DNA from: a virus
Length of the DNA: 38,556 nt
Reading direction: 5' to 3' (one strand)
Virus record (IMG/VR): IMGVR_UViG_3300033148_005357
Coordinates: 1-38,556 of that record
The notes below the pieces were generated by a model. The model did no database searches. It was not told where the DNA came from and worked only from the letters and a program-made list of their open reading frames with translations. Below, piece after piece: positions 1,597 to 34,411 of this stretch. Numbering within the stretch: position 1 is the stretch's first letter; the number at the start of each line of letters is the position of its first letter. The translations under genes were made by a program, and so were the position numbers.

Positions 1597-3039
1597 ATGG
1601 GAAACCTAAAGAAAATAGCTAAAACAATAGCTATATGTGGAGCAGTAGGAGTTCTTGGCTTAGGTCTTTCTGGATGTGCAACTCAAGGGATTTCGTTAGA
1701 GGACCACAATAAAGCATTATCAGAAGCAAAGGCAAAAGCATATGATGAGGGAAAAGATTCAGTTGATATTACCTCTAATGATGCAGACGTAAGACAAAAC
1801 GCTATTGATGAGTTGGCAGCAGCAGAACCGATTGAAGAGGAAATTGTTTCTGAAGTTGTAGGTGAGGCTATGTTATGGGATCATGATTACTTTCTAGGAG
1901 ATTCTATTGACATAACTTTAGGAGATAACAAGATTACTAAATTAATGGATGACGTGATTACAGTTGATGGAGATACACATGATGTAGCCGAGTATATTAT
2001 ATTTGATGATGGGGCTATGATGGTGGGTTCATCAGATGACAAAGATATGGAGGACAAACCTCATTTAATTATGGATGAGAAAGGAGCTTTGAGATATGAG
2101 TTTAGGTTTGAAGATCCTCTTGATGCCAAATTATTGGACGATGACAAAGCTGAAATAATGTTCTTAGGAAAACCTATGAAGATTACCAATATTGGAGAAG
2201 ATAGTATAACTGTTGAAACAGGAGCAGAACACTACTTTGATGTTGGGGCAACCTTTGAAGGAGTAACTCTTGAGAATGTTGGAGCAAATGGTGCTGTAGT
2301 AGTCAGAGTTGGTGACGTTAGAACTACAGTCTCTGCTGGAAAGAGTAAAAACATTAACGGAATGGAAATTAAGAATGTAGAAACCTTTTATGCTGATGGT
2401 ATAGAAGAAAGAAGTGCTACACTCTTAATCGCAAGTGATGTAGAGATGGAAATAGACAACGATGAATATTATGATGATGACGAGTTGTGGAGATATAACT
2501 TGAGAATTGTTGATGACAAACTTGAAAGTATTAGTCTTGAGTTAGATAAGAAATTCTATGACTTAGATAGAGATGAGAAACCATTAGCAGAAGGAGAAAC
2601 ACTTAGCCTTCCTGAAAACTATTTAACAATTAAATTTGTTGGAACTAATAACCCAGATATGGTTGATTATAGTTTTGATAGAGATGGCAACTGTATTGAA
2701 ATCAGGAGTGGAGATAGTGAAGGCTTTGTTATGGGAACAAACGAGTATAGAAGTGTTTATTTAGATGTTGTTGAAGGAATGTTCTATGATGATGACTGTG
2801 GTGAAGTAGAACTGGATGATGAGTTAAAAATGAAAGATGGATATATGTTGACCTCTTCATTAGAAATAATGAATGGTGATGATATGTTGTTGGACGTTAA
2901 TGACTTGCCAAATAGAGATGAAAGCCTTTTAACAGACTTCGGAATTGTTGTAGACAATCCAGAAGAATGGGATGAAGAAGGAGAGTTAAGTATTTCTGTC
3001 CCAGAAGAACAGCTTGAAACAACTATTGGAATATATTAA
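1597..3039 (+). CDS. S-layer-like surface lipoprotein
   Basis: 480 aa from ATG 1597; GGAGG at 1584-1588 decides this start, since the ATG at 1582 overlaps the SD itself. Residues 5-26 form a signal peptide ending in a lipobox-like LGLSGC with Cys27, so lipidation and cell-surface display are expected. The rest is acidic and beta-rich. Stretches such as 'LRYEFRFEDPLDAKLL', 'MFLGKPMKITNI' and 'GVTLENVGANGAVVVRVG' followed by 'INGMEIKNVETFYADG' resemble the S-layer proteins typical of DPANN archaea. Resemblance is from memory of the family, not a search. It could alter the host envelope, block superinfection or mask receptors. It is followed by a tiny acidic ORF and a terminator. Confidence 0.7.
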   Translation: MGNLKKIAKTIAICGAVGVLGLGLSGCATQGISLEDHNKALSEAKAKAYDEGKDSVDITSNDADVRQNAIDELAAAEPIEEEIVSEVVGEAMLWDHDYFLGDSIDITLGDNKITKLMDDVITVDGDTHDVAEYIIFDDGAMMVGSSDDKDMEDKPHLIMDEKGALRYEFRFEDPLDAKLLDDDKAEIMFLGKPMKITNIGEDSITVETGAEHYFDVGATFEGVTLENVGANGAVVVRVGDVRTTVSAGKSKNINGMEIKNVETFYADGIEERSATLLIASDVEMEIDNDEYYDDDELWRYNLRIVDDKLESISLELDKKFYDLDRDEKPLAEGETLSLPENYLTIKFVGTNNPDMVDYSFDRDGNCIEIRSGDSEGFVMGTNEYRSVYLDVVEGMFYDDDCGEVELDDELKMKDGYMLTSSLEIMNGDDMLLDVNDLPNRDESLLTDFGIVVDNPEEWDEEGELSISVPEEQLETTIGIY

Positions 3040-3057: not shown

Positions 3058-3108
3058 ATGAGTGAAGACGGAGAAAGACCAGAAGCACCTGTAGAAGAAG
3101 AAGATTAA
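3058..3108 (+). CDS. 16-aa acidic peptide overlapping the terminator
   Basis: AAGGAGG lies 9 nt upstream of ATG 3058, as good an SD as any in the window. The peptide (MSEDGERPEAPVEEED) is very acidic, and its last codons are the left arm of the terminator hairpin. It may be a real micropeptide or a translated tail that keeps ribosomes near the terminator. Confidence 0.35.
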   Translation: MSEDGERPEAPVEEED

Positions 3109-7650: not shown

Positions 7651-7778
7651 ATTGATTGTGTTACTACTACTATTATATAACAATAACATTGATTGTGTTA
7701 CTACTACTATTATATAACAATAACATTGATTGTGTTACTACTACTATTATATAACAATAACATTGATTGTGTTACTAC
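7651..7778. repeat. Tandem 37-bp direct repeats, 3.5 copies
   Basis: Exact copies begin at 7651, 7688 and 7725, with a 17-bp partial copy at 7762-7778. Each begins attgattgtgttactac and ends with an AT-rich half. A related inverted piece, agtaataaca, precedes the first copy. The array is flanked by ggggcaggg on both sides (7589-7597 and 7779-7787). Position between divergent units suggests iterons of a replication origin or multiple binding sites for a regulator. There are no spacers, so it is not a CRISPR array. Confidence 0.9.
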
Positions 7779-7946: not shown

Positions 7947-8213
7947 ATGACCTCTTCCATTCACGTACGCATAGCGACTATAGATTCGGAACTAATGCAA
8001 TATTACTTATGGAAAAACAAGATAATCAATCCTCTTAATATAGATCAATTCAATTTGAGCTTCTCCTTACAATCACTTTTATATAATTTCGTTAGACAAG
8101 AAATATTCCCTCTTATAATTTATGGCACAGACAACAAAGCCACACGATTAAGACGGAAATACGCCAAGGAGATAGCAGAATATGAAGAATTCAGAAAAAC
8201 GCTGGACGAATAA
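7947..8213 (+). CDS. First late gene, possible small DNA-binding protein
   Basis: 88 aa, no SD; the TATA box spacing predicts leaderless translation from ATG 7947. The N-terminal strand (SSIHVRIATID) followed by helices ending in a basic, charged C-terminus (ATRLRRKYAKEIAEYEEF) loosely recalls ribbon-helix-helix proteins. Being upstream of the terminase genes, it could be a packaging-site recogniser or a late regulator. Not recognised with confidence. Confidence 0.6.
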   Translation: MTSSIHVRIATIDSELMQYYLWKNKIINPLNIDQFNLSFSLQSLLYNFVRQEIFPLIIYGTDNKATRLRRKYAKEIAEYEEFRKTLDE

Positions 8214-14344: not shown

Positions 14345-14593
14345 ATGGCTGCATTAGCATATAGAGCAACAGAAGAATCAATTCGTAGAGACTTTGATGC
14401 TACAGATACTTGGAAAGTTGTTTATGAAGGGTTTGCACAACCAGGACATTATGATGATAATGGTAGTGCTGTATGGAAGATATGCAAATATATTTGGGTC
14501 GGAGCCCAAAATGTAGCCATTGCTTGGGCTGATGGAAATACCAATTATGACAAAATTTGGGATGATAGGGATACAGCTTATACTTACACTTAA
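14345..14593 (+). CDS. Small conserved phage protein (fibre-associated type)
   Basis: 82 aa. The pattern 'TDTWKVVYEGFAQPG', 'AVWKICKYIW', 'AIAWADGNTNYDKIWDDR' closely follows a small family found beside tail-fibre genes in many tailed phages. It is beta-rich with many Trp and Tyr, so a virion or fibre accessory role is likely. It starts one base after the portal stop (TAA-A-ATG), without SD, and the same junction links it to the fibre gene downstream. Confidence 0.6.
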   Translation: MAALAYRATEESIRRDFDATDTWKVVYEGFAQPGHYDDNGSAVWKICKYIWVGAQNVAIAWADGNTNYDKIWDDRDTAYTYT

Positions 14594-14594
14594 A

Positions 14595-16523
14595 ATGAAA
14601 AAAAAAATCATATTTTTAGTTTTGTTGATACTTTTACTTAGTTTTTCTGTTTCTGGATTAAGTTTGAAATCTATCTTTAATCCTTATACTCAAAGACTGG
14701 ATTATATTAGGACCGCTAATTTTAGTGGAGAGAATTTTACTGCTTTTAATATCACGGCAGAAGGATATTTTGAAGGGGATGGAAGTCTTTTAACTGGTAT
14801 ATCAGGATCAGGGGATGGGTTTACTAATTGGATTAATTTAATGTTATGGAATCAGACAAAACTTAATGAAACCTATGCCCAGAATGAATCTGTAGTAGAT
14901 ATTTGGGCTTACTTCGGAAACTATGTAAGTTCAACATCCCTCAATGCAACTTATGCTTTGAATGATACTTTAACAGATTATGTAAATTGGGTTAAAGGAA
15001 ATTTGACTTATGTAAATAAATCAGGAGATAGGATGACTGGTAATTTGGATGTAAGTGGAAACATAACAGTTGATGAATATATCTTTGGACAACCTTTAGA
15101 AGGAGGAGTAAGTAATGGAATTATATGGGCTGCAGAAATAGATGGTTTCGGACAATTAAACCTATCACATGAAGAAGGAACAAGAGAAATAACTTATCCT
15201 GATATGACTGTTAGAATAGTATCAACTCCAGATGGTAATGAAAAGTATTGTGATATTCCAGGAGCTATGGTTGAAGTAACAGATAATGCTCATGTAGCTT
15301 ATGTTGTAGATGCGTCAGATTGTTCATTATCTTTTGTACCAGTTAGTACATTTGTAGATGCAGGCATTAATCAAGCAGGAAATATACCACTCTTCCATGC
15401 AATGTCTCATAATGGTGTGACTGAAGTACATCAAGGAATGCCAATTTTAAACAGGTTATACATTCGTTCAAGATTACTAAACTTAAAAACAATTAACTTA
15501 GATGTGATTAGTGGAATGGGTTTAACAAAAGAAGGTTTATTGAACTTTACAATTAATTTAGGAGAATATATCTTTATAGATGCTCCAGTAAGTTCAACTG
15601 TACAAAACTTATCTAATAATGCAACATTAGAAATATTTTTCAGAGATGGAGGAACTTATGAGTATGATGAATATTTTGGAGGAACACAAACAGGTTTAAA
15701 TCTCACAAGCTGTGAAGATGCTTCACAAAATTTAGTTGAATGTTCAGCAATTACAAAATATAGAAGATACTTTATATTTATTACTGGGTATGATAACAGT
15801 GATGATGATACAAAATTACATCAGAGATTAGCATCAGATGAGATTTATTATACTACTCTTGCTGGTTGTTTAAATACAGAAACAAATCCAATAACTTATG
15901 ACTTGCCAGATATTTATGATTATACAGCTGTGCCAGTATTTGCTTATTGTGGACAAGCAAATGATAATGCACTTTCAGAAGGTGCTTTTATTGATTTAAG
16001 AACAGTTCAAACAGGACAAGCATCTGGTGGAATAGATACTTCTATATTTTTAACTAAAGATGGTTCAACACCTTTAACATCTGACTGGGCAGCAGGAGAT
16101 TATACTATAAATCAATTAGAAGCAAATGCAACAAGGTGGAATAATGCTACTGAAGGAGTAATGAGAGATGATGGTTGGAATGAAACTTACACTCTCAACG
16201 ACACATTATACGATTATGTTGATTGGATAAGAGGCAATGCAACTTATTTCTTATTATCTTCTATTGGAGATTATGTTAAATCAGAGAACTTAAATCTTAC
16301 CTATGCGCTGAATGATACACTTGGTGATTATCTTCCAGACACAACTACTTTACAAAGTGCATCTAATGTAGGTTATACAAATATATCAGAGACCTTTACT
16401 AAGAATCTAACAGCAAGTGATAGTGTAATTGGTACCAAATTATATGTTGGATCTCTTCCAATAGACAGCAATGCAACTTGTATATTCATAAGAGGAGGAA
16501 CAAGCACTTGGGAGATTTGTTAA
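14595..16523 (+). CDS. Secreted fibre-like protein with internal repeats
   Basis: 642 aa from ATG 14595 (TAA-A-ATG junction; longer in-frame upstream ATGs lie within the 14345 gene). A signal peptide covers residues 2-23 (KKKIIFLVLLILLLSFSVSG). 'FEGDGSLLTGIS' and 'GDRMTGNLDVSGNITVDEYI' are the fibre/collar signatures seen in phage tail fibres and in DPANN surface proteins. A motif N-x-T-Y-x-L-N-D-T-L recurs at about 116, 529 and 566. N-glycosylation sequons are abundant, and Cys residues occur in the central domain. It likely binds the host surface; a fibre exported by Sec is unusual for a tailed virus. Confidence 0.7.
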   Translation: MKKKIIFLVLLILLLSFSVSGLSLKSIFNPYTQRLDYIRTANFSGENFTAFNITAEGYFEGDGSLLTGISGSGDGFTNWINLMLWNQTKLNETYAQNESVVDIWAYFGNYVSSTSLNATYALNDTLTDYVNWVKGNLTYVNKSGDRMTGNLDVSGNITVDEYIFGQPLEGGVSNGIIWAAEIDGFGQLNLSHEEGTREITYPDMTVRIVSTPDGNEKYCDIPGAMVEVTDNAHVAYVVDASDCSLSFVPVSTFVDAGINQAGNIPLFHAMSHNGVTEVHQGMPILNRLYIRSRLLNLKTINLDVISGMGLTKEGLLNFTINLGEYIFIDAPVSSTVQNLSNNATLEIFFRDGGTYEYDEYFGGTQTGLNLTSCEDASQNLVECSAITKYRRYFIFITGYDNSDDDTKLHQRLASDEIYYTTLAGCLNTETNPITYDLPDIYDYTAVPVFAYCGQANDNALSEGAFIDLRTVQTGQASGGIDTSIFLTKDGSTPLTSDWAAGDYTINQLEANATRWNNATEGVMRDDGWNETYTLNDTLYDYVDWIRGNATYFLLSSIGDYVKSENLNLTYALNDTLGDYLPDTTTLQSASNVGYTNISETFTKNLTASDSVIGTKLYVGSLPIDSNATCIFIRGGTSTWEIC

Positions 16524-16524
16524 A

Positions 16525-19500
16525 ATGGTTAAGTATCGTAGAATATATATCGGAAGTTCTACTGTAGGCATTACCTTAATTAGTTTATTTCTCTATATGA
16601 CCTTCCTTGGTGCTACAATCATTTCTGATGGAGATAAGGTTTGTGCTGGAACAATAGAAGATCCCTGTGTAAGTTTGATAAATATTACAGTACCAATCAC
16701 TTTTTACATTTACAATAAAGAAGGAATAGATTTGGATTTCTCTCCAAATATAGAAAATTATAAACTTTATCTTCGTGATAAAAGGTATACAAGAACCTGT
16801 ATTGAGGATATTTGTGGTTGGAGACTTTTTGAAATGAAAGAGAAGAAAGAAGGTTTCCAATATGCATACAAGTTCTACCCCAATAAAGTTTATGAGTTTG
16901 CTTTAGTTGGTTATAAGAAGAACCCTGATGATGTAATTAAATGGAGTTTGGGTGCTGCTAATGAAGAATTAGATCCTATTTGGTTAGCTCCTTCAAAAGA
17001 TAAATTATCAAATGTTTTAAAAGTATCCCTTAGAAGTTCAGAAGGCTGGGAAATAACAGCAACAGGCGCAGAAGAAAATCTTAATGTAGAATATGAAATA
17101 ATTGGAGAGAACGCAACAAAATTCTGCATAGAATTTAAGGATAAAAAAAAGTATGAAGGTGCTTTGAGTTTATCTGCGAAAGATATAAGGCAAGTTCCAA
17201 TAACCAAAATTGATTCAAAAGATTCTTCCTTCTTCTTAGAGAAGGAAACAATTGACATATCCAATGCAGACAAGGAAAAACAATGCTTCACAATAACCTA
17301 TGATGAATTCAAGGAAGGAATGGAATTCAAGATTGGATGGAATAGTATAACAATCTCAAGCGACCTGTCCTATGGAAGGTCAAATACTGCTTCATTCAGC
17401 GACCACATATTTTATGACCCTATAAATAAAAGATGGCATGTTGTTTATGTTGATGATGGAGATGATGTGCATACTCAATCATCTAGTGATAAGGTAAATT
17501 GGGTGGATGGAACTATTGATATATCAGGCAACATGGATTATGATGAATTTGATTGTGAACTTGATGTTTATGATGGAAATACTTACCTACACTGTGTTTA
17601 TGGAAAGAGTTGGTATGATGGATTCAGCATTAGAAGATGTGCTCTGACAGGAAGTTCTCCGTTTATTACTTGTGGTTTGGCTCATTCTGCTTTTAAGTCT
17701 GCTTCAATGGCTGGAGGAGATGTAAATGATGAAATTGAATCTATGTCAATAACTCTTGATTCAGATAGATGTTCTTTAATTGCTTTTGGTATGGAAGATG
17801 ACAGCATAGCTGACTCAGGTGAAGAATGGCAAGTTATGTTAATAAAAGAGAGGAATTATGGTGATAGTGGATGTGGAGATGGAGATTTTTATGGAGGTTA
17901 TGAATTCACTCCAAATGCTGTAGTCAAAGTTGTAAATGCGGAAATAGACACAAATAAGTTTGTAACCTGTTGGGTTAATCAAAGTCAAGGTAACCCTTAT
18001 GCTGGTTATTGTAATGTGGGAACACTATCAGGAACAACAATCACTTATGGAGACCCATTTATGTTTGATAATGATTGTTATCATGACCCTGGTTATTCTG
18101 TAATAGGTATAGCAAAATTAGACACAAACAAGTTTGCAGTTGCTTTTTCTGATTTAGGGGCTGCTCCTGGATATGTTATTGCAGGAAATGTTTCAGGGAC
18201 TGACATAACATTCGGAACAAGAGTAAGATTCGGAGATTCTGCTACTGATTCTGAATATATTGCTATGGATGGAATAGATGTTGATAAGGTTGCTATTGTA
18301 TCTAATGATGAAGCCAACAGCAATACAGGGAAAGCTATAGTTTGCAATACTGGTTCTGGGATAGATGACTTAACTTTTTCCTGTGGTTCGGAAGTTGATT
18401 TAGTAACAGGAAAAATAGGCACACATCCTATATGGACTTCTGTAGCAAAAATAGATACTGATAAATTTATCACTTGTTACGGAGACGCAGTTAATGGCAA
18501 TGGAATCTGTGTTTCTGGAACAGTGTCAGGAACTACTATAACTATGGGAACTCCATCAAATTTCAGTAATGGAGAAAATGTGATATATACAAAGGTGAGC
18601 AGTCCAGATACAGATAAGTTTGTATTATCTTATACTGATACTGTTGCTTCAGCTGATGATGGAGAATTACTTGTTGGGAATGTAAGTGGAACAACTATAG
18701 CTTATGGTTCTCCTTCTGTTATCGGCTCTATAAATTTATATCAAATGAATCATATTGGAATTGATTCAACGCATTTTGCTTTGGTTCATTATGATGGTTC
18801 ACTTGTACCAGTAGATTACTACTCTGTTGATTGGACGGCTAACACTTTTGCAAAAATGGAAACATTACCTGTTGATGATGGAATTATTGGAGGAGGAAGT
18901 GATTTTGGTTTGGATATAACCAAAGTTTCTATGAATATGAGTGTTGTATGCCTTCAAAATGATTATGAAAATGACCAAGGAGAATGTAGTGCTGTAAACT
19001 TTTCAGATGCAGAGTTCCCAGTAAAACCTTTATATAATATTCAAGAAGAAGCAGGATACGGTAGACCATTAAGTCTTGGAATCAGAAGTTTTGGAGATTT
19101 GGATGCTCAAATCTTCTGGGATATAGATTCTAATTTTAGAACAGTGTTCTTTGACGGAGATACAAACACCATTGGGACACAGGTTTTGTTAAATGATTCT
19201 ACTAAACAGTATTCTACTTATGGCTCAAATGATGCTGTTGTAATTGGGGACAGTACAATTAGTTTTGCCAGAGATAGTCCAACAAGTAATGTTCAAGCTT
19301 ATGTTACATCTTCTAAAGATGGAAATATGAGTTCATATATTGATACTGGTTTAGACCAATACTATGCAGCAGGGATACAATATTCTGGTTTTATAACTGC
19401 AGCTGTTGATACAAGAGCTTCTGGAGGGGATGATATTTATTTATTTGTTACGGATGATGACGACCCAAATGATATTTATTATGCACAATCAACAGATGGA

Positions 19501-19884
19501 GGGGTTTCATGGGAGACTCCTGTCTTATGGATGGATGATGTTGGCAATTTTGATGCAAGGTATTTATCCTCTTACTTTGATAATACATCTTGTGATATTA
19601 TGGTAAGGTGGGTGGTTAATAATACTGTTGATGGATTATATAGTGTTATGGTTAATAATCTAACTACTGATAGTTGTGAAGTTTCAGATACTTGCACATA
19701 TTCAGGTTCTGGAAATTGGATTGTTGATGGTTCAGATAATTGTGTTATCACAGAAAAAGTAACAGGAGATGGAAGCGATATGAGTATTGATGGAACTGGA
19801 ACTTTTACTGCTGAAGCAGAGATAATAGGTTTTGGAACTTACACTACAAAAGGAGCCTGTGTTGTTAGGGGAAAAATCACCTAA
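16525..19884 (+). CDS. Large surface adhesin with beta-propeller-like repeats
   Basis: 1119 aa. Residues about 10-32 form a membrane/signal segment (TLISLFLYMTFLGATI), then a Cys module 'GDKVCAGTIEDPCVSLINIT' and 'LVGYKKNPDDVIKWS' that reappears in the 30380 protein. From about 290 it has BNR/sialidase-like blades (VVYVDDGDDVHTQSSSDKV), then at least five blades built on 'D-T-N/D-K-F-x' and 'G-T/N-V-S-G-T-x-I-x-x-G' between about 470 and 760, and further Asp-box-like blades (YYAQSTDGGVSWETP). Such propellers bind or cleave glycans. Likely host-recognition protein on the tail or a cell-surface adhesin. Asp boxes alone do not prove enzyme activity. Confidence 0.7.
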   Translation: MVKYRRIYIGSSTVGITLISLFLYMTFLGATIISDGDKVCAGTIEDPCVSLINITVPITFYIYNKEGIDLDFSPNIENYKLYLRDKRYTRTCIEDICGWRLFEMKEKKEGFQYAYKFYPNKVYEFALVGYKKNPDDVIKWSLGAANEELDPIWLAPSKDKLSNVLKVSLRSSEGWEITATGAEENLNVEYEIIGENATKFCIEFKDKKKYEGALSLSAKDIRQVPITKIDSKDSSFFLEKETIDISNADKEKQCFTITYDEFKEGMEFKIGWNSITISSDLSYGRSNTASFSDHIFYDPINKRWHVVYVDDGDDVHTQSSSDKVNWVDGTIDISGNMDYDEFDCELDVYDGNTYLHCVYGKSWYDGFSIRRCALTGSSPFITCGLAHSAFKSASMAGGDVNDEIESMSITLDSDRCSLIAFGMEDDSIADSGEEWQVMLIKERNYGDSGCGDGDFYGGYEFTPNAVVKVVNAEIDTNKFVTCWVNQSQGNPYAGYCNVGTLSGTTITYGDPFMFDNDCYHDPGYSVIGIAKLDTNKFAVAFSDLGAAPGYVIAGNVSGTDITFGTRVRFGDSATDSEYIAMDGIDVDKVAIVSNDEANSNTGKAIVCNTGSGIDDLTFSCGSEVDLVTGKIGTHPIWTSVAKIDTDKFITCYGDAVNGNGICVSGTVSGTTITMGTPSNFSNGENVIYTKVSSPDTDKFVLSYTDTVASADDGELLVGNVSGTTIAYGSPSVIGSINLYQMNHIGIDSTHFALVHYDGSLVPVDYYSVDWTANTFAKMETLPVDDGIIGGGSDFGLDITKVSMNMSVVCLQNDYENDQGECSAVNFSDAEFPVKPLYNIQEEAGYGRPLSLGIRSFGDLDAQIFWDIDSNFRTVFFDGDTNTIGTQVLLNDSTKQYSTYGSNDAVVIGDSTISFARDSPTSNVQAYVTSSKDGNMSSYIDTGLDQYYAAGIQYSGFITAAVDTRASGGDDIYLFVTDDDDPNDIYYAQSTDGGVSWETPVLWMDDVGNFDARYLSSYFDNTSCDIMVRWVVNNTVDGLYSVMVNNLTTDSCEVSDTCTYSGSGNWIVDGSDNCVITEKVTGDGSDMSIDGTGTFTAEAEIIGFGTYTTKGACVVRGKIT

Positions 19885-19958: not shown

Positions 19959-22154
19959 ATGCCTATTCCATCACCGTCTAATGGTGAAAGTAGAGATAAA
20001 TTTATATCTCGCTGTATGGGTTCAAGTACTATGAAATCTGAATACCCTAATCAAAAACAAAGACATGCTGTTTGTTCTTCACAATTTGGAAGGAAAAAAA
20101 AGGAACAGATTTTTTCTAATATCCGTGGTTTTGAAATTAAAGAAGAATCAGAAGACCATTTGAAAGTTGCAGGTTATATCGCAACCACCCATTTAGATTC
20201 TGGATTCCAAGATGAAGAGAGAGGAATATTCATAAGAGATAGGATAACAAAAGAAACATTAGACAGTTGGGCTGAAGAAATTAACGAAGGACTACCAAGA
20301 TCCAATAAAGTATCAGTACACCATGAGAGAGAACCTCATGTAACAGGTGTTGGAGTTAAAGGAAGTGGAAGAGTAGACATTCTTCCAGATGGGCATTATG
20401 GATTATATGTTGAAAGCCTAATGGATAAAACAAAAGAAGATTATGATAACACAAAATATAGAATTGAGAGTGGTTTTCTTGATTCTTTTTCAATAGAGTT
20501 TAGAACTAAAGACCCGATGACTGGAGAGTATTTCGATGGTGCTGTAAGTGAAACAAATGTCGATGGAGGCATAATAAGAGATTTATTACCTGGAACACAT
20601 TTAGAAGGTTGGACACTGGCTTCACAGCCAATGAATGAAAATTGTGTTATGATTAAAGAAATTCTTGGTAAATTAACAAATAAAGATAAAAAAGAAATTA
20701 AGGAGGACAATAAAATGACCGAAGAAGAAACCCCAACACAACCTGAAGATAGTACTAAAGCAGAAGCTAGTGAAGAAGAAGTTCCTGCTGAAGAAGAGAA
20801 AACAGAGGTTGCTAAGGGTATTGAAACTAAAGAGTTCAAAATTTCTCAAGAAGATATTGCTTTGCTTAAAGAAGTTAAGGCAATGAAAGAGAAAGAAGCT
20901 AAAGAGCAAGAACTCAAAGAAATTAAGGATAGAATAATGGAAGAAATTAAAGGCCAACTTGACACAGCTGAAGTAAAAGATGCTGTAAAAGCTAACCCAG
21001 AAGAGACAACAGAAACAAAAGAATTAAAAGAATATAGGGAAATCTTTGAAGAAAAGAGTAAATTAAGTATTCCTGAACAGTTCATAAGGGCTGGAAAATT
21101 AGTTACAAAAGAAATGTTTGGAAGAGGTACATCTGCTGAAAGTAAAGAATATAAAGACTTTACAATTAGGGGCAATAAGTTAGAGTGTAAGGGACTTGGA
21201 ATAACTTCTAATCAAAATACTGATACTGATTATTTATTAAGCAGTGCAGAATTAAGTGATGTATTTGACCCTGTTATTTACAATGCTTTGAACCAAGCAA
21301 CAGTTACTTGGAATATTCTTCAAAAAGATGACTATAGCCAGAAAGGAAACAACCAAGTTCAGTTTGTATTGAAGACTTTACAGAACCCTACAAGGGGAGC
21401 TTACACAGGTAATGCCGTATCTACAGGGAATGTAACTAGGCTAAAATACCAAACTAAATTTAAGAAGTATTCCGTTGGTGTTGAAGTTGATGGAGACATG
21501 ATTGCCGCAGCTAGAGGCGGACCTATTGGAGATGTATTCGCATTAGAGGTAAAAGATTCTACAGTTGATTTGATGCAAACAATGAATCTTGCTTTGTTCG
21601 CAGAGGCAGGTCTTGAAACAGACGCAGAAGTTATTGGATTTGAATTTATTACAGATAGTGCTGGTAATACCACCATGTATAATCTTACAAGAAGTGCCTT
21701 GAATAAACTTAGTCCTGATACTGCAACAGATACATACATCAATGCAAATTCCGCAAACATTACTTTAAGTGATTTGAGAAAAGCAAAGAGACAGGCTATA
21801 AAAGAAGGAGCTCAAATAGAGAACCTTGTTTTTATAACAAACCATATACAAGGGGACAAATTTAGAGCAATCTATGATAACATCCAGAGGACTACACCCA
21901 CCTCTTCAAGATTTGGATTTGAAGGAAGACCTGAATTTGACGGGATTCCAATTTTCGAAGACAAAGATTGTAATGATGATGACTGGTGGTTGGTTGATTT
22001 AGAAACACATAGGATAGCTGTATGGGTACCTCCAACATTAGAGATGCTTGGAAAGGACGCTGATTCCCAAAAAGGATTCATAAAGACTTACTGGTGTACA
22101 TATAACAGAGGACCTAGAAGAATGGTACAGATTTATGGGGCAAAGACCACATAA
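19959..22154 (+). CDS. Prohead protease-scaffold-major capsid fusion protein
   Basis: 731 aa. Residues 1-45 hold a short motif common at phage protease N-termini ('SRDKFISRCM...YPNQKQRHAVC'). About 50-235 is an S78/U35-type prohead protease: VSVHHEREP supplies the His (121/122) and DSFSIEF the Ser (176/178). About 250-370 is a Glu/Lys-rich helical scaffold (delta) domain. About 380-731 is the HK97-fold capsid: 'LLSSAELSDVFDP', 'QFVLKTLQNPTRGAYT', a spine helix and the final 'YNRGPRRMVQIYG'. The protease would cut the delta domain off on maturation. Leaderless start; a strong internal start at 20715 makes MCP alone. Confidence 0.9.
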   Translation: MPIPSPSNGESRDKFISRCMGSSTMKSEYPNQKQRHAVCSSQFGRKKKEQIFSNIRGFEIKEESEDHLKVAGYIATTHLDSGFQDEERGIFIRDRITKETLDSWAEEINEGLPRSNKVSVHHEREPHVTGVGVKGSGRVDILPDGHYGLYVESLMDKTKEDYDNTKYRIESGFLDSFSIEFRTKDPMTGEYFDGAVSETNVDGGIIRDLLPGTHLEGWTLASQPMNENCVMIKEILGKLTNKDKKEIKEDNKMTEEETPTQPEDSTKAEASEEEVPAEEEKTEVAKGIETKEFKISQEDIALLKEVKAMKEKEAKEQELKEIKDRIMEEIKGQLDTAEVKDAVKANPEETTETKELKEYREIFEEKSKLSIPEQFIRAGKLVTKEMFGRGTSAESKEYKDFTIRGNKLECKGLGITSNQNTDTDYLLSSAELSDVFDPVIYNALNQATVTWNILQKDDYSQKGNNQVQFVLKTLQNPTRGAYTGNAVSTGNVTRLKYQTKFKKYSVGVEVDGDMIAAARGGPIGDVFALEVKDSTVDLMQTMNLALFAEAGLETDAEVIGFEFITDSAGNTTMYNLTRSALNKLSPDTATDTYINANSANITLSDLRKAKRQAIKEGAQIENLVFITNHIQGDKFRAIYDNIQRTTPTSSRFGFEGRPEFDGIPIFEDKDCNDDDWWLVDLETHRIAVWVPPTLEMLGKDADSQKGFIKTYWCTYNRGPRRMVQIYGAKTT
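20715..22154 (+). CDS. Nested start: scaffold-capsid protein without protease
   Basis: AAGGAGG at 20700-20706 lies eight bases before an in-frame ATG at 20715, the best SD in the fused gene, whereas the fusion's own start has none. Translation here gives a 479-aa delta domain plus capsid protein beginning MTEEETPTQPED. This would supply MCP in excess over protease-bearing copies, as nested capsid genes do in other phages. It also explains how a single gene can satisfy the ~420:few ratio of MCP to protease. Confidence 0.7.
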   Translation: MTEEETPTQPEDSTKAEASEEEVPAEEEKTEVAKGIETKEFKISQEDIALLKEVKAMKEKEAKEQELKEIKDRIMEEIKGQLDTAEVKDAVKANPEETTETKELKEYREIFEEKSKLSIPEQFIRAGKLVTKEMFGRGTSAESKEYKDFTIRGNKLECKGLGITSNQNTDTDYLLSSAELSDVFDPVIYNALNQATVTWNILQKDDYSQKGNNQVQFVLKTLQNPTRGAYTGNAVSTGNVTRLKYQTKFKKYSVGVEVDGDMIAAARGGPIGDVFALEVKDSTVDLMQTMNLALFAEAGLETDAEVIGFEFITDSAGNTTMYNLTRSALNKLSPDTATDTYINANSANITLSDLRKAKRQAIKEGAQIENLVFITNHIQGDKFRAIYDNIQRTTPTSSRFGFEGRPEFDGIPIFEDKDCNDDDWWLVDLETHRIAVWVPPTLEMLGKDADSQKGFIKTYWCTYNRGPRRMVQIYGAKTT

Positions 22155-22171
22155 GTCTTTTTTTTATTTTT
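22142..22171 (+). terminator. Hairpin and T-run after the capsid gene
   Basis: aaagac (22142-22147) pairs with gtcttt (22155-22160); the 7-nt loop contains the capsid stop TAA. tttttattttt follows. It would limit readthrough so that capsid is made in excess over downstream genes. Confidence 0.7.
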
Positions 22172-22203
22172 AATAAAATAAAATAATATGGAGGAATATT
22201 AAA

Positions 22204-22563
22204 ATGACAGCATTAAATGCAACAAGTTGGGGTGCAATACATGAAGTATCCGTATCAGAATTGCCATCTCAAAATGGGATTGGTGTAACTGCAAAACCTA
22301 TTAGGAAAGCATTAGTCTTTCTAAATGTTGATACAATCTCTACAACCGATACATTAGATATTAATGGTTATATCCCGGGTACAGTTAAAAGAATAGATGG
22401 AATCTTATCTGAAGCAATAGATGGGTCTCGAGATTCGGCACATAGGGGATCAACTACCTGGAGTACCACTACACTAACCTTTGGAGCACATGATAAAGGC
22501 GGTGGGGCAGGAGACGGTGGAACTGTAAACCAAAAGATGGTTTTATTGGCACAACTAAGATAA
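22204..22563 (+). CDS. Putative head decoration/stabilisation protein
   Basis: 119 aa, GGAGG nine bases before ATG 22204. Beta-rich and Thr/Gly-rich ('ALVFLNVDTISTTDTLDING', 'TTTLTFGAHDKGGGAGDGG'), with no membrane segment. Directly after the capsid gene, small beta proteins of this kind usually decorate the capsid. Function is by position; no family recognised with certainty. Confidence 0.5.
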   Translation: MTALNATSWGAIHEVSVSELPSQNGIGVTAKPIRKALVFLNVDTISTTDTLDINGYIPGTVKRIDGILSEAIDGSRDSAHRGSTTWSTTTLTFGAHDKGGGAGDGGTVNQKMVLLAQLR

Positions 22564-22573
22564 GGAGAATTGA

Positions 22574-22807
22574 ATGACATCAGTTTTATATGAACAAGAA
22601 CTAGATGAAGAACACATTAAGATAAGTGTAACTCAAGGAGGCATGCATGTCTCCGACTTATCTGAAGTTCTAATCGTACAATGTACTCCTGCATCAGATG
22701 TTGATGCATACGTTAGTGCTAAAATAGTTGATGGAAGAAACGTTTACTTTTATAAAAGTAACACAGCAGATGAGGATGTCTGGGTAACATTAAAGGGGAG
22801 AAAATGA
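22574..22807 (+). CDS. Small beta protein, paralogue A of a tandem triplet
   Basis: 77 aa. It shares with the next two genes the layout Y-x-x-E-L-x-E-E-H/N-I/L-x-I/L-x-V, 'SDLSEVLIVQ', a short central strand and a closing 'V-T-L-K-G-R-K'. The fold is probably a beta-sandwich. Three copies next to the capsid genes suggest virion surface or decoration proteins with slightly different partners. Its SD is GGAG 22563-22566. Confidence 0.6.
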   Translation: MTSVLYEQELDEEHIKISVTQGGMHVSDLSEVLIVQCTPASDVDAYVSAKIVDGRNVYFYKSNTADEDVWVTLKGRK

Positions 22808-23046
22808 CAACTACACTAAAATATGAAGATTATATGGCTGAAGAGAATTTAATCCTTACAGTTTCAGAAGGAGAAACATACACATCAAAGTTGTCTGAAG
22901 TATTCTCTGTACAAGCAAGATATGCAGAAGATATAGATGGTTATATAAATGCTACGCTTAGTACATCAGATGATCGTACAATAACATTTAATGTTACTGG
23001 CGGTACTGATAAAAAAGTATATGTAACAATCAAGGGGAGGCTATAA
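22804..23046 (+). CDS. Small beta protein, paralogue B of a tandem triplet
   Basis: 80 aa, overlapping A's stop by four bases (ATGA), with GGGGAG upstream. 'MAEENLILTVSEGETYTSKLSEVFSV' aligns well with copies A and C, as does the C-terminal 'KVYVTIKGRL'. Central loop differs, as expected if the copies bind different targets. Likely a virion accessory protein. Confidence 0.6.
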   Translation: MTTTLKYEDYMAEENLILTVSEGETYTSKLSEVFSVQARYAEDIDGYINATLSTSDDRTITFNVTGGTDKKVYVTIKGRL

Positions 23047-23047
23047 A

Positions 23048-23350
23048 ATGGCAGCAGCAACTATAACAAACGATTATACTGAAGAACTCACAGAAGAGAA
23101 TTTAATTCTTTGGGTTATGGAAGGAGAACAGTATTATTCTAAATTAAGCGAACCCAAGATTGTACAAGCAACATTTGCTACAGGGGCCTCTGCAGGACCA
23201 AATGCTTATAGTTTGGATACATATGTTGAAGGGCCAATAAACGCTACTATTTCAGGGAATGTTATAACTTTCCACACAACCGCAGGTGGCGGATCAGCAC
23301 AAAATGGTAGTGGTGGAACTGCTTTTATAACTATAAAAGGAAGACGTTAA
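23048..23350 (+). CDS. Small beta protein, paralogue C of a tandem triplet
   Basis: 100 aa, starting one base after B's stop (TAA-A-ATG), with GGGAGG 11 bases upstream. 'LTEENLILWVMEGEQYYSKL' and 'GTAFITIKGRR' match A and B; a ~20-residue insertion rich in Gly, Ala and Ser sits in the middle. Longest copy. Role inferred as for A and B. Confidence 0.6.
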   Translation: MAAATITNDYTEELTEENLILWVMEGEQYYSKLSEPKIVQATFATGASAGPNAYSLDTYVEGPINATISGNVITFHTTAGGGSAQNGSGGTAFITIKGRR

Positions 23351-23381
23351 TCTCAACTATTACAATAATGGAGGTTTAAAT

Positions 23382-23624
23382 ATGAAGGAATGTATTAATT
23401 GTAAATGGAAAGGAGAAGATGAAGAGGTTACAGACGGAGGATTGGCACATTGTCCAAACTGCGGAGATAACACTCGAGATATAGTCGAAGAACCTAAAGA
23501 AGAAGAATCAAAACCTAAAAGAAAATCTAAAAAGGAAGATAACTTTGATTTAAATAGAGATGGAAAAGTAGATAAGAAAGATACAAGATTGGCTGCAAGA
23601 GTTTTAAGGAGAGCAAGAAAGTAA
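23382..23624 (+). CDS. Zinc ribbon plus dockerin-like calcium loop
   Basis: 80 aa, GGAGG nine bases before ATG 23382. Residues 4-27 hold C-x2-C and C-x2-C (CINC...CPNC), a zinc ribbon. An acidic-basic linker (PKEEESKPKRKSKK) leads to 'DLNRDGKVDKKDTRLAARVL' (about 55-74), an EF-hand-like D-x-N-x-D-G-x-V-D-x-x-D loop with a following helix, as in dockerin type I repeats. Only one such loop is present, against two in true dockerins. It may link virion parts or bind cohesin-like domains. Calcium and zinc binding are inferred. Confidence 0.6.
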   Translation: MKECINCKWKGEDEEVTDGGLAHCPNCGDNTRDIVEEPKEEESKPKRKSKKEDNFDLNRDGKVDKKDTRLAARVLRRARK

Positions 23625-25991: not shown

Positions 25992-26162
25992 ATGAAAATT
26001 AAATTTAAAGATAAGGAAGGGATCCTTCATTGTGTCGAAGGTACAGAAGAGTTTGTTAAGGAAAAGATGAAAGAATATGGAAAAGAAAAAGAAAAGATTA
26101 TTAATAAAAAATTGAAGGAGAACAAAGAAGATGCAAGCAGCACCAGACGCATGGGCGGATAG
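25992..26162 (+). CDS. Small charged helical protein
   Basis: 56 aa with GGAGG just upstream of ATG 25992. A strand start (MKIKFKDKEGILHCVEG) is followed by a highly charged helix (FVKEKMKEYGKEKEKI). It overlaps the first tail tube gene by 32 nt. No family recognised; similar small genes often precede tail tube genes. Confidence 0.5.
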   Translation: MKIKFKDKEGILHCVEGTEEFVKEKMKEYGKEKEKIINKKLKENKEDASSTRRMGG

Positions 26163-26730
26163 ATGCCGAATAGGTATCATGAGAGCCGGTGGTTCAGAAG
26201 TTCAATTTCATGCAAGGACAGAAGATATTACCTTTGATACTGGAGACAAGGATATAGAAGGAATCTCTCTCACTGGTGGCGGAAGAGTTGTGAAGCCAAT
26301 ACAAATGACAGATGAGAGTGTTACTCTTAAAATGTATCCAGTAGAAACTGACTTGGCTGGTGGAGGATTAGCTCAATGGTTCCATCCACAAGGAGCAGCT
26401 AATGGTGTTTCAGATGATGAATCAGAACCTTTCGTAGTTACAAACACTAATTATAGAATTAAGCATAGGTTAATCTTTTTGTGGTGTCCCACATTACCAG
26501 CAGCAGCAGCAACTGTACCAACAGATGAACCTGCACAGAGGATACAGATTATTAATGCTTATATGACAGGTTGGAAATTAAACTACGATGACAAGATACT
26601 CAGTGCAGAAGCTACATTCAAGTGGGCTCCATTCACAAGAGCGGGTATCGGTAATAAAAGAGAAGAATCAACTACCGGAGTTACAACAGACTTACCAGCC
26701 GCAACAACAAGTGCGACTAGCTGGGCTTAA
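26131..26730 (+). CDS. Tail tube protein, copy 1
   Basis: 199 aa. AAGGAG precedes ATG 26131. It shares with copy 2 'TEDITFDTGDKDIEGISL', 'GGRVVKPIQMTDESVT', 'INAYMTGWKLNYDDKILSAE' and 'FKWAPFTRAGIGNKREESTT'. Beta-rich, right size, and placed between neck genes and tape measure, so a tail tube (major tail) protein is the best call. Both copies seem intact. Confidence 0.7.
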   Translation: MQAAPDAWADRCRIGIMRAGGSEVQFHARTEDITFDTGDKDIEGISLTGGGRVVKPIQMTDESVTLKMYPVETDLAGGGLAQWFHPQGAANGVSDDESEPFVVTNTNYRIKHRLIFLWCPTLPAAAATVPTDEPAQRIQIINAYMTGWKLNYDDKILSAEATFKWAPFTRAGIGNKREESTTGVTTDLPAATTSATSWA

Positions 26731-26742
26731 GGAGGTAGGAAA

Positions 26743-27354
26743 ATGGTAGCAGCAACAGCAATGCCGGACGCATTTAGCGAATTGTGTTTAATTGGTGTAA
26801 CAAGTGAAGATGACTTAAATAATGAGCTTGAATTTGCAGGATATACAGAAGATATAACATGGGATACTGGAGATAAGGATATAGAAGGTGTAGCACTTAC
26901 ATCTGGTGGAAGGGTTGTAAAACCTATTCCAATGACAGATGAAAGTGTTACTATGAAAGTCTATCCAGTAACTGTAGACAACACAGAAGGTGGTTTCGTA
27001 CAGTTATTCCATCCAGATATTTCAAAAGATACATCAGAACCTTTTGTATGTACAAGCACAGCTCAAAGGAAGAAACACAGATTGATCTTCTTATGGAGTA
27101 GCGACTTACCAGCCGCAGCTTCAGCAGTTCCACAACCAGGAGCACCATCTTATAGAATACAAGTAATTAACGCATATATGACTGGGTATAAATTGAATTA
27201 TGATGATAAGATACTTAGTGCGGAAACAACTTTTAAATGGGCTCCATTTAGTAGGGCAGGAATTGGAAATAAGAGAGAAGAATCTACAACTGGTGGAACA
27301 CAAGCAACTGCACAATTAGCTCTCGCAACAAATAGTGCAACAACCTGGAATTAA
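26743..27354 (+). CDS. Tail tube protein, copy 2
   Basis: 203 aa, with GGAGG nine bases before ATG 26743. Clearly a tandem duplicate of copy 1, matching over most of its length, with divergence at the N-terminus and in the variable 95-110 loop. Two tube proteins could alternate in the tail, or one may serve as a tip/initiator form. The terminator that follows would set a high level of both proteins relative to the tape measure. Confidence 0.7.
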   Translation: MVAATAMPDAFSELCLIGVTSEDDLNNELEFAGYTEDITWDTGDKDIEGVALTSGGRVVKPIPMTDESVTMKVYPVTVDNTEGGFVQLFHPDISKDTSEPFVCTSTAQRKKHRLIFLWSSDLPAAASAVPQPGAPSYRIQVINAYMTGYKLNYDDKILSAETTFKWAPFSRAGIGNKREESTTGGTQATAQLALATNSATTWN

Positions 27355-30379: not shown

Positions 30380-33300
30380 ATGAAATGGCAGGAAGCAGCC
30401 AAATTAATTGGCGGAGGAACAGGAGTAATAGCTTTAATTAGTATCTTAGTCATACTTTCTGGAATGAGTTATGAACACTCGGGTGATATGTATTGTGAAG
30501 ATACATGTGAATCATATATTAACATCACCACAAGGTATTGGAGAGTTTGTTTTGAAGAATCTGATAAAGAAGAGACGTTGTATAAGAAACAAAGTCGTAG
30601 CAGAACTTTGTGGGTTAACTTAAACAATATTGATAACATTATTTCTACAGAACCCTCTACAGAAGTTGAATGGGTGGTTCCCACTTATGGAAGGAAGTGG
30701 AGACCTATTAAATCTGGAGACTGTTGGGATAGAGGAAGAGTAAACAAGATTAAATTAATTGGACACAAGAGATATGATGAAACAGTAAAGTGGAGTTTTA
30801 ATTTTGATGATAAAATAAATATAGATCCTAAATGGATTAAAACAAATGTAACTTATACTCCTTATTCCAGATATGGGGATGGTGTGGCTCTCATCGAAAG
30901 TCAAGGATTTTATGAACTTCCAGATAAAAGAATTGTTAAAAGAAATGAAGTTCCAAACCTTCTTGAAGCTGATTTAATTGGAGAAGGAAAGGTCTGGAGT
31001 TGTGAGGTTGAAGAAGATAAAAAGGCAGGTATCAAGTGTAATTCAATAAATATAACCGATGGTAAATGGAGTGTGTACTTAGAACCAATGGCTAAAGAAG
31101 TAGGTACTTATCCTATTAAAATAAAGAAATACAATTATACAAATAAAGAATATTATTTTGAAAATATAGGAGAAATAAGTTTCTCCAGTTTAAATGAAAA
31201 GAAAGAATTGAATGTGTTACTTGATGGGTGTGGTGAAGAAATACATATTGGACCAGAATCAACAATAGTTCATGTTAAAACAAATGCTACCAATCCTAAA
31301 ACACAATTTACAACTATGTCACAAGAAAGTCCTAATACTGTTTATGGAGGGCTGGGTGTTGACTTGCGGGTTAAACCTGGTTCAACCACTACCTCTTGGG
31401 ATTTCTTAATGGATTGGGGTTTAGATGAAACCATCCCTCCAGGAATAACTATAACAGCAGGGATATTTTCTGGATATACTACTTTTATAGATGGGGCAGG
31501 TAATTCATCAGGACATTGTTATTTATCAACAGAAACATTTGATTTTAAAACTGAAACTTGGAATACTTGGTGTGGAGGAGACCATTTAACTGGTTCAGCT
31601 TGTTTTTCTGCAGATGATGAGATAATGCATATTCCAGATAATCTAGCAAACACCGCCTTTCATAACCTCACTATGCAAGTAGCTGAATTACAAGAACTTT
31701 ATGAATCTAGCTCTAAAGTAATATATTGTTTTCCTACACTTCATGCTTCAGAAGACCATGATGGAACAAGATTTGATGACCAGAATGGAACTTATACTCC
31801 TAGTCTCATGATTACTTATGAAGTAGGAAATACTGCACCATCAGTACCTACTTTAAATTCTCCTGCTAATAATACAAATACAACTACTTTGATTCCTTTA
31901 AATTGGATAAATTCAACGGATGATGATGGAGATTCAATAACATATTATTTAGAGGTAGATGATGATAATGATTTCTCTAGCCCAGAATATGTTAATACAA
32001 GCATTAAAGAAACAATAAGCCCAACAGAAGATTTGCCCACAGGGTTGTCTCACGCCAAATATTTTTGGAAAGTTTTAGCTACGGATGGAGAGGATAATAG
32101 TTCTTGGAGTTTAGTAAGAGCTTTTAGTTATGATGCAATTACAACGAGAAATGCTTCTTTATTTTTGGATGGGTTCAGGAATAATTTAAATGTAGAACTT
32201 GGTTCTCCAATAAATGTAAGTGGAAATGCTACATTTGGACATAATATAACTATAGATATAGACCATCCTGATTATGGAATTGCTTATATTACTGGAGTAG
32301 ATATAGTTGCCTTTGATTTAAATATTAATTACTTTAGAAGAGAAGAAATGAATGATTCCAAAACAAAAACTAATCTCACATATAATGGTGAGGATAAAAT
32401 AGATATTGGAATCAAAGGACACCAATATGATGAACTCATTGATTTAACATTGAATGTAACAGGGTATCCTGATAATGGAATTAACCCCTCCAATGTTAAA
32501 ATATATGTTAATAACTCATTAAGCAATAGTCTTGGAACATTATATAAAAGTGGAGATTACAATTTAAATTCCTTTAGTGATGGTGATGGTGTTAAAAATA
32601 CAACCTTAAGTGGTGGTTCTGTTGCTACTGTTGGATACTTAAAGATACCCAGCACTGCTACAGTTACAGATACTTATTTAAACATTACAGGATACAATAC
32701 AGGAGGGATAGACCCATTGTCTCCTGATGGAAGTTCATTAAGGATAGATGGAGGTGTAGCTACCCATTGTGGAAACAAGACTTATGATTTTGTTGAGTTA
32801 AAAAATGGTGCATCTCTTTATGTCTGTGATTATGATGCTAATTCAACAAAAGGATTATTCTTCATTAATGCTACTTATAATATTACTGTTGATAAAACTT
32901 CTCAAATAGTTGGGGGTGGAAGAGGTTATCGTGGAAGTTCTACATTGTACACAAATGGTGAAGGACCTGGTGGTGGTGGAAGAGGATGGGGAACAGGTCC
33001 TTATTCTGGAGGAGGGGGAGCAGGATATGCTAAATCTGGTGGATTTGGAGGTAATGAATTAAATGCTCCTGGTGGAGAGGGTGGTTTATCTTATGGTTCT
33101 AATTCAAGCAAGGAATTTGTTATGGGTTCTGGAGGTGGAATTGGGGGTGGTTCTGTAGGTGGACATGGGGGTGATGGTGGTGGTTCATTCTATTTGCTAT
33201 CAGAAATGGTTAATATTTCTGGCAATATAACAACTATAGGACATGATGGTCAAACAAATGACAATAGTGGTGGAGCTGGTTCTGGTGGAATTATTATCAT

Positions 33301-34411
33301 AGAGGCTACTTATATTTACTTGCATAATTTATTAGATGTTCATGGAGGAGCTGGTTCTAAAGCACCAGGCAGTTGGGGAACTGGTGGTGGTGGTTCTGGG
33401 GGAATGATTAAATTATTTTATGCTAGTTATAATTCAGAAGGATTTGCATACAATCTTTCTGGTGGTTCTGCAATGGATAGTCCTTATGGAAATGGAACAG
33501 CTGGTGGTGATGGATTAATTTACCAGGAACAAACAGGAAACTTTACTTATAATCCTTTCTTTGAAGCAGGAAATATAGATGGAACAAGAGAATGGAATTA
33601 CTATGGCCACTTTAATGGAAAACACAATAAAACAAAAGACTTTGCTGCTTCTATAAATACTTACCTAGCATCATGCACCCCAGATGCTAATGGAGATTGT
33701 CTAGTTCCATTATATCTTTATTCAGAATCTGATGGAATCATAGAAATATCAGATATAAATGTTGCATATACTTACAACGTAAATCCAATTACTTTAGATA
33801 TAGATTTGGTTTCTGATTTCTTAACCAATGAATCAAACTTCTCGGATATACCTATAACATTCTACAGTGCTACTAAAGGAATTATAGAGGTAGATGATAT
33901 TAACTTTAATTATGCTGGTGGGAATGATACCATAGAGGTAAGGGCATATAGTGTTGGTGGGGAAGTTAATGAATCATATAACATTACTTATTTCTATTCT
34001 CGATGGGATTACACACTTCCACAACACATTACTTATTTTGAAGTAATACCAAGAACTCCAACAACAGATAATATAACTCCTTTTGGACAAACGGATAGCA
34101 GGGCTATGCTTAACATATCTATGTTAAACTATGGAGGCAGGGCAATGAATTTTTCTGTCTATCAGAACGAATCAGAAAAAACAATGTGTGTTAATATGAC
34201 TATTTCATTAGATAATTATAAATCTAATGGAACATTCATAATAAATCAAACATGGACTAATTTAGTTATCAATGCAACATACCAGAACAAGACAGACTTG
34301 TGGTTCTGGTTTGATTATAACTGTAACTATACAACCTGGAGACTATGGCAACCAGACTTTTACTTTAGAGGTTGTGCTTACAATACAACCTGTTCGGAGG
34401 CGGTAATCTAA
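30380..34411 (+). CDS. Giant adhesin with Fn3-like and glycine-rich domains
   Basis: 1343 aa. Residues about 14-30 form a membrane segment (GVIALISILVILSGM), followed by 'GDMYCEDTCESYINIT' and 'LIGHKRYDETVKWSFNF', the module shared with the 16525 protein. About 300-480 is a Cys-containing beta domain; about 485-585 an Fn3-like domain ('APSVPTLNSPANNT...YFWKVLATDGEDNSSW'). About 850-1050 is a Gly-rich array (PGGGGRGWGTGPYSGGGGAG) like polyglycine adhesin tips. Dozens of N-x-S/T sequons occur. Likely the main receptor-binding tail protein, anchored or exported during assembly. Confidence 0.75.
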   Translation: MKWQEAAKLIGGGTGVIALISILVILSGMSYEHSGDMYCEDTCESYINITTRYWRVCFEESDKEETLYKKQSRSRTLWVNLNNIDNIISTEPSTEVEWVVPTYGRKWRPIKSGDCWDRGRVNKIKLIGHKRYDETVKWSFNFDDKINIDPKWIKTNVTYTPYSRYGDGVALIESQGFYELPDKRIVKRNEVPNLLEADLIGEGKVWSCEVEEDKKAGIKCNSINITDGKWSVYLEPMAKEVGTYPIKIKKYNYTNKEYYFENIGEISFSSLNEKKELNVLLDGCGEEIHIGPESTIVHVKTNATNPKTQFTTMSQESPNTVYGGLGVDLRVKPGSTTTSWDFLMDWGLDETIPPGITITAGIFSGYTTFIDGAGNSSGHCYLSTETFDFKTETWNTWCGGDHLTGSACFSADDEIMHIPDNLANTAFHNLTMQVAELQELYESSSKVIYCFPTLHASEDHDGTRFDDQNGTYTPSLMITYEVGNTAPSVPTLNSPANNTNTTTLIPLNWINSTDDDGDSITYYLEVDDDNDFSSPEYVNTSIKETISPTEDLPTGLSHAKYFWKVLATDGEDNSSWSLVRAFSYDAITTRNASLFLDGFRNNLNVELGSPINVSGNATFGHNITIDIDHPDYGIAYITGVDIVAFDLNINYFRREEMNDSKTKTNLTYNGEDKIDIGIKGHQYDELIDLTLNVTGYPDNGINPSNVKIYVNNSLSNSLGTLYKSGDYNLNSFSDGDGVKNTTLSGGSVATVGYLKIPSTATVTDTYLNITGYNTGGIDPLSPDGSSLRIDGGVATHCGNKTYDFVELKNGASLYVCDYDANSTKGLFFINATYNITVDKTSQIVGGGRGYRGSSTLYTNGEGPGGGGRGWGTGPYSGGGGAGYAKSGGFGGNELNAPGGEGGLSYGSNSSKEFVMGSGGGIGGGSVGGHGGDGGGSFYLLSEMVNISGNITTIGHDGQTNDNSGGAGSGGIIIIEATYIYLHNLLDVHGGAGSKAPGSWGTGGGGSGGMIKLFYASYNSEGFAYNLSGGSAMDSPYGNGTAGGDGLIYQEQTGNFTYNPFFEAGNIDGTREWNYYGHFNGKHNKTKDFAASINTYLASCTPDANGDCLVPLYLYSESDGIIEISDINVAYTYNVNPITLDIDLVSDFLTNESNFSDIPITFYSATKGIIEVDDINFNYAGGNDTIEVRAYSVGGEVNESYNITYFYSRWDYTLPQHITYFEVIPRTPTTDNITPFGQTDSRAMLNISMLNYGGRAMNFSVYQNESEKTMCVNMTISLDNYKSNGTFIINQTWTNLVINATYQNKTDLWFWFDYNCNYTTWRLWQPDFYFRGCAYNTTCSEAVI

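Follow-up and report, generated by a model that had tools for sequence, protein, structure and literature searches.

The 38,556-nucleotide stretch analysed here in full (the window; a 38.6-kb virus record, IMGVR_UViG_3300033148_005357, whose genes are ordered as in a head-tail virus) carries near its left end a + strand gene for a 480-aa protein (1597-3039), just as the original prediction had it. This gene, hereafter P0001, was called from its open reading frame and from homology as a predicted S-layer-body lipoprotein, and it sits in a short + strand block that faces a - strand block, the original placing of it in an 'early' unit being a guess. Although its longest frame begins at an upstream ATG (1582), we place the start at 1597 because a Shine-Dalgarno-like GGAGGA (1584-1589, + strand) lies 7 nt upstream of that ATG. 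The gene has its own promoter-like element, a TATA-like box (TTTATATAA; 1536-1544, + strand) 53 nt upstream of the start codon, which is one of three TATA-like 9-mers in the window and matches by consensus only. Beyond the gene, a putative 16-codon acidic mini-ORF (MSEDGERPEAPVEEED; 3058-3108, + strand) has a GGAGGA of its own and is followed by a T-rich run.

The N-terminus of P0001, MGNLKKIAKTIAICGAVGVLGLGLSG up to the predicted cleavage site and CATQ after it, has the makings of a lipoprotein signal peptide (1597-1677, + strand): it opens with basic residues, runs on through a hydrophobic stretch and closes with a lipobox, LSGC, whose cysteine is residue 27 (codon 1675-1677). LSGC fits the archaeal lipoprotein pattern [LVI][ASTVI][GAS]C, and lipidation is predicted from this pattern match. 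The signal peptide and lipobox-like Cys27 first read from this DNA are thus both present, and the former can be aligned with its counterpart in cellular S-layer proteins (from residue 1 in some local alignments), which have alanine in the cleavage region where P0001 has LSGC. Lipobox ORFs also occur in a genome of the host order (L176) and in a relative virus (G002); the small G002 protein (LSVLAGCASVK; L005 202-666, G002:C1:20202-20666) is different from P0001 and is encoded directly before the capsid gene. After Cys27 come an acidic spacer predicted to be helical (residues 28-100; 1678-1896, + strand) and a beta-rich S-layer body, or 'inner' region (residues 101-480; 1897-3036, + strand). 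Aspartate and glutamate make up 26% of the protein, and its AlphaFold2 model is beta-rich, with a pLDDT of 80.5 overall and mostly above 90 in residues 110-350.

The rest of the window looks like the genome of a non-enveloped head-tail virus, with a terminase (matching PF03237 and a PHROG terminase) and a structural module that also encodes a portal, an SU10-like capsid protein, a tape measure and tail proteins. It is bounded by an inverted terminal repeat of ~128 bp (1-128/38430-38556; 97% identical, perfect over ~115 bp), both copies of which contain the coding start MPYKVKDSGK; this repeat may be natural or an assembly artefact. A perfect tandem repeat of a 37-bp unit (3.5 copies, 7651-7778), possibly a replication origin or regulatory iterons, sits in the gap between leftward genes reaching 7271 and rightward genes starting at 7947. 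Among the products of the structural module are very large proteins that carry a signal or TM segment at the N-terminus (14520-19884 and 30380-34411), similar ones being found in the relatives G376, G380, G384 and G385. Such proteins are odd for a non-enveloped tailed virus, and they may be fibres or else proteins on the surface of infected cells. Two tandem duplicated genes (26131-26730 and 26743-27354), kin to a single gene in relative viruses, recur as a pair in the viral contig G242:C7 discussed below. The 46-kb relative G376 has fragments of a transporter-like membrane protein at both ends (L196/L198), read as EamA-type by eye, and is perhaps a provirus with host flanks.

Searched alone, P0001 looks like an orphan. 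At E<=10 neither Pfam nor NCBIfam matches it, no PDB chain matches by sequence, and PHROGs gives a single chance match (E 1.3). Phage records contain no relative, and none was found in IMG/VR viral contigs, which were searched with the full P0001 sequence, with parts of it, and with A3, L159, L145 and A4. An initial genome-contig search with the body found no match, and a PF05124 search of the whole window record came back empty. Structure, which the original prediction had also proposed as a check, did not help: a fold search with the P0001 model in PDB and BFVD returned nothing at E<=1e-3, with top TM-scores near 0.1. Pfam, NCBIfam, PDB and BFVD are empty for P0001 because these libraries model the anchor domain of S-layer proteins, not the body. 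To take the lack of a profile or structural match as refutation, as had been proposed, would have misfired, wrongly discarding the S-layer kinship.

That kinship emerges from DPANN genomes, which were located by a 16S pattern and then searched by tblastn. The first match came from one Nanoarchaeia genome (E 1.1e-24), and relatives of P0001 were found by tblastn in 38 of 371 Nanoarchaeota genomes (best E 4.5e-34); a two-row viral profile matches 61 of 103 genomes of one order. Searches run without a positive control found no relative in 87 genomes of another DPANN phylum, to which a Diapherotrites genome belongs, or in ten other archaeal genomes, mostly methanogens. Each of 40 DPANN-derived loci (620 ORFs) has exactly one ORF matching P0001, with blastp E-values from 6e-36 to 2e-9. 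Most of these relatives are ~700-800 aa long with a signal peptide at the start, and nearly all are canonical S-layer proteins. Ten were tested against PF05124 ('S-layer like family, outer domain'), and the five above the curated cut-off (E down to 6.6e-19) are all full-length canonical forms, the other five being forms without the anchor domain; TIGR01564 (S_layer_MJ) is above cut-off in one relative. By database criteria, the canonical relatives of P0001 are S-layer proteins. Identity between P0001 and the cellular bodies is 20-32%, and no near-identical cellular source of the gene was found (best identity about 30%). Matches of part of the window to Nanoarchaeota genomes at the DNA level, which are short, weak and spread over many genomes, were treated as AT-rich noise, and no host-linking spacer was identified.

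What P0001 shares with these proteins, and what it lacks, can be specified domain by domain. In canonical cellular proteins PF05124 is split over both ends (residues 41-692 in L160), with a beta-rich body between the halves. The predicted structure of L160 (pLDDT 79) matches PDB 9FSA with a fold probability of 1.00, and the cellular family profile matches the same entry at E 3.2e-12. 9FSA is the crystallised region 24-75 plus 484-576 of the Methanococcus voltae S-layer protein, a domain to which dimerization of the anchor is attributed (PMC11410804). The names given to this split domain conflict over the side of the lattice it faces, Pfam calling it an 'outer domain' and the crystal-structure paper an anchor; we follow the paper. 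A profile of 29 canonical proteins finds P0001 at a full-sequence E of 4.4e-47 and finds nothing in reversed or shuffled P0001. It aligns residues 102-365 (the strongest body match) and 433-479 (the end of the cellular body) with model positions 112-402 and 569-615, and hhalign of the viral pair (P0001 and the G242:C7 protein) against the cellular family gives a probability of 100 and an E of 2.9e-42 over 117-621. P0001 keeps 19 of 32 near-invariant body columns but none of the 11 near-invariant columns of the C-terminal anchor half, and the N-terminal half is replaced by the unrelated acidic spacer. The body is also shorter, well over 100 cellular body columns being missing, and lattice contacts may have been lost with these columns and at 20-32% identity.

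By sequence comparison, then, residues ~100-480 of P0001 are homologous to the central body of Nanoarchaeota S-layer proteins, and both halves of the PF05124/9FSA anchor domain are absent, while a signal peptide is retained that ends in a lipobox. The proposed resemblance to DPANN S-layer proteins is sound for the body, which the profile detects with empty controls, and fails for the split anchor domain, so that P0001 is an incomplete subunit; likewise, the HMM search once recommended is empty in Pfam and NCBIfam for P0001 alone and succeeds through its DPANN relatives and their profile. P0001 was tested for the domain that defines the PF05124 family and lacks it, so it is not a complete S-layer protein of that family. 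It is best described as a homologue of the Nanoarchaeota S-layer body that may work like part of that protein. Compared with the Methanococcus-type (PF05124/TIGR01564) S-layer proteins of Nanoarchaeota, it has a homologous body and a signal peptide but differs in lacking both anchor halves, in its lipobox, in its shorter body and in being encoded by a virus. Both viral proteins have no N-glycosylation sequons (each canonical protein has at least three), and a reading of P0001 as a glycan-free decoy was rejected, composition explaining the lack (shuffle P 0.13 and 0.25).

The second viral protein is the best P0001 match (E 6e-36), a 689-aa ORF (21354-23423; L145 4524-6593) in G242:C7, a 31.7-kb viral contig assigned to the bin of a DPANN genome. 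This contig carries relatives of the window's terminase, portal, capsid, tail-tube and tape-measure genes. The 689-aa protein has the same body, likewise gives no PF05124 match and comes from a virus of the same broad family. It differs from P0001 in an extra N-terminal domain, a Pro-rich linker, a C-terminal hydrophobic (TM-like) segment and the location of its gene in the structural module, where the major capsid gene lies on one side and head-tail/tail genes on the other. The MAG that contains G242:C7 also has an ordinary S-layer gene (L157). The body is absent from 13 other records of the virus family (five are 39-46 kb and many are fragments), which share parts of the structural module with the window, and from two further contigs binned with Nanoarchaeota. 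Found twice at different genome positions and absent from most relatives, it is therefore an accessory gene. In the gene tree the two viral proteins pair at 99/93; as both are long branches and neither is firmly placed on its own, they may share an origin or reflect two captures.

The chromosomes of the cellular relatives also encode S-layer-body proteins without PF05124 (L158 2963-4213, L159 4542-5978, L161 4557-5936 and L177 4863-7151), in non-viral neighbourhoods, which apparently form an undescribed cellular subfamily. L159, L161 and L158 resemble P0001 in being a body without an anchor domain (416-478 aa) but are chromosomal and fall outside the viral pair in the tree.

In most archaea the S-layer is the principal component of the envelope. 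The reading we prefer, to which we give about an even chance, takes P0001 for an S-layer body that the virus captured and fitted with a different membrane anchor, and that changes the coat of infected cells. The uses first suggested for such a protein, namely remodelling of the envelope, exclusion of other viruses and disguise, are all hypotheses. The protein would be exported and receive a lipid at Cys27, by which it would be tethered to the outside of the host membrane. Its body, being similar to host S-layer subunits, would let it enter or underlie the host S-layer, and it would change the cell surface without completing the normal anchor-dimerised lattice. The purpose could be superinfection exclusion, in which the S-layer would be masked or replaced as a receptor for tailed archaeal viruses, two of which are known to use an S-layer protein in this way (PMC12494034). 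We prefer this purpose by analogy, at about even odds once insertion into the S-layer is assumed. Two phages offer further precedents. The surface lipoprotein Ltp of phage TP-J34 acts in superinfection exclusion (PMC3952083), and P0001 would likewise be virus-encoded, lipid-anchored and surface exposed; the comparison is one of mode of action, and the reported target of Ltp is the tape measure protein of the incoming phage. Methylophage Melnitz encodes an S-layer-type protein for which exclusion has been postulated (PMC9004378), but this is a bacterial phage whose gene is known by annotation only, and the likeness to P0001 is one of description.

The missing domain could point elsewhere, to anchor-less bodies that co-assemble as dominant-negative subunits, poisoning the lattice and weakening the coat so that virions leave. 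A subunit without the split domain should create defects if that domain dimerises the anchor (PMC11410804), but a lipid-anchored protein could just as well reinforce the coat and the P0001 gene is not adjacent to recognisable lysis genes, which is why we hold a role in egress to be unlikely. Alternatively, the S-layer-like body might be carried on the particle, where it would aid docking with the host S-layer or passage through it. The best argument for such a virion component is the position of the G242:C7 gene, which suits a virion role no less than an envelope role, and the family has other large secreted proteins in its structural module. In the window, however, the gene lies outside this module and its product has a signal peptide and a lipobox, the 13 records that share parts of the module lack the gene, and the virus looks non-enveloped, all of which makes a place in the virion rather improbable. 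A secreted surface protein with another job, in which the S-layer body serves as a generic extracellular domain (adhesin, nutrient or ion binding) that benefits host fitness, would find company in the anchor-less chromosomal proteins with their non-viral neighbourhoods (L158, L159, L161 and L177), and 26% Asp+Glu recalls ion-binding surface proteins; yet P0001 does not group with the short cellular forms in the gene tree, and we think this a distinctly poor candidate. That a cellular S-layer gene fragment was misjoined to a viral contig, as might be feared for a gene near one end of a metagenomic contig and absent from relatives, is scarcely credible given a complete ORF with its own ribosome-binding site, its position, with the left terminal repeat on one side and viral genes on the other (that repeat also closes the far end), the independent case in G242:C7, the loss of anchor halves on both sides of a body whose signal peptide is retained, and the failure to find a cellular source closer than about 30% identity.

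Returning to the preferred reading of a captured body on a substituted anchor, it could be extended to the proposal, which we rate a little below an even chance, that DPANN tailed viruses repeatedly took the host S-layer body, dropped its anchoring domain and fitted their own anchor (a lipid or a TM helix), thereby rebuilding or infiltrating the coat. No report of an archaeal virus encoding an S-layer homologue was found in the literature searched, which includes at most a minority of subscription journals, and as of 2024 no DPANN S-layer structure had been solved (PMC11329633). P0001 probably ties an unassigned virus family to Nanoarchaeota (DPANN) hosts, and for the fold of its S-layer body a search of PDB and BFVD gave no viral relative, solved or predicted. 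The predicted exchange of the anchor for a lipid yields a testable statement on which region of the S-layer protein is important to the virus and, if the extended proposal is true, P0001 would be a virus-encoded S-layer replacement subunit.
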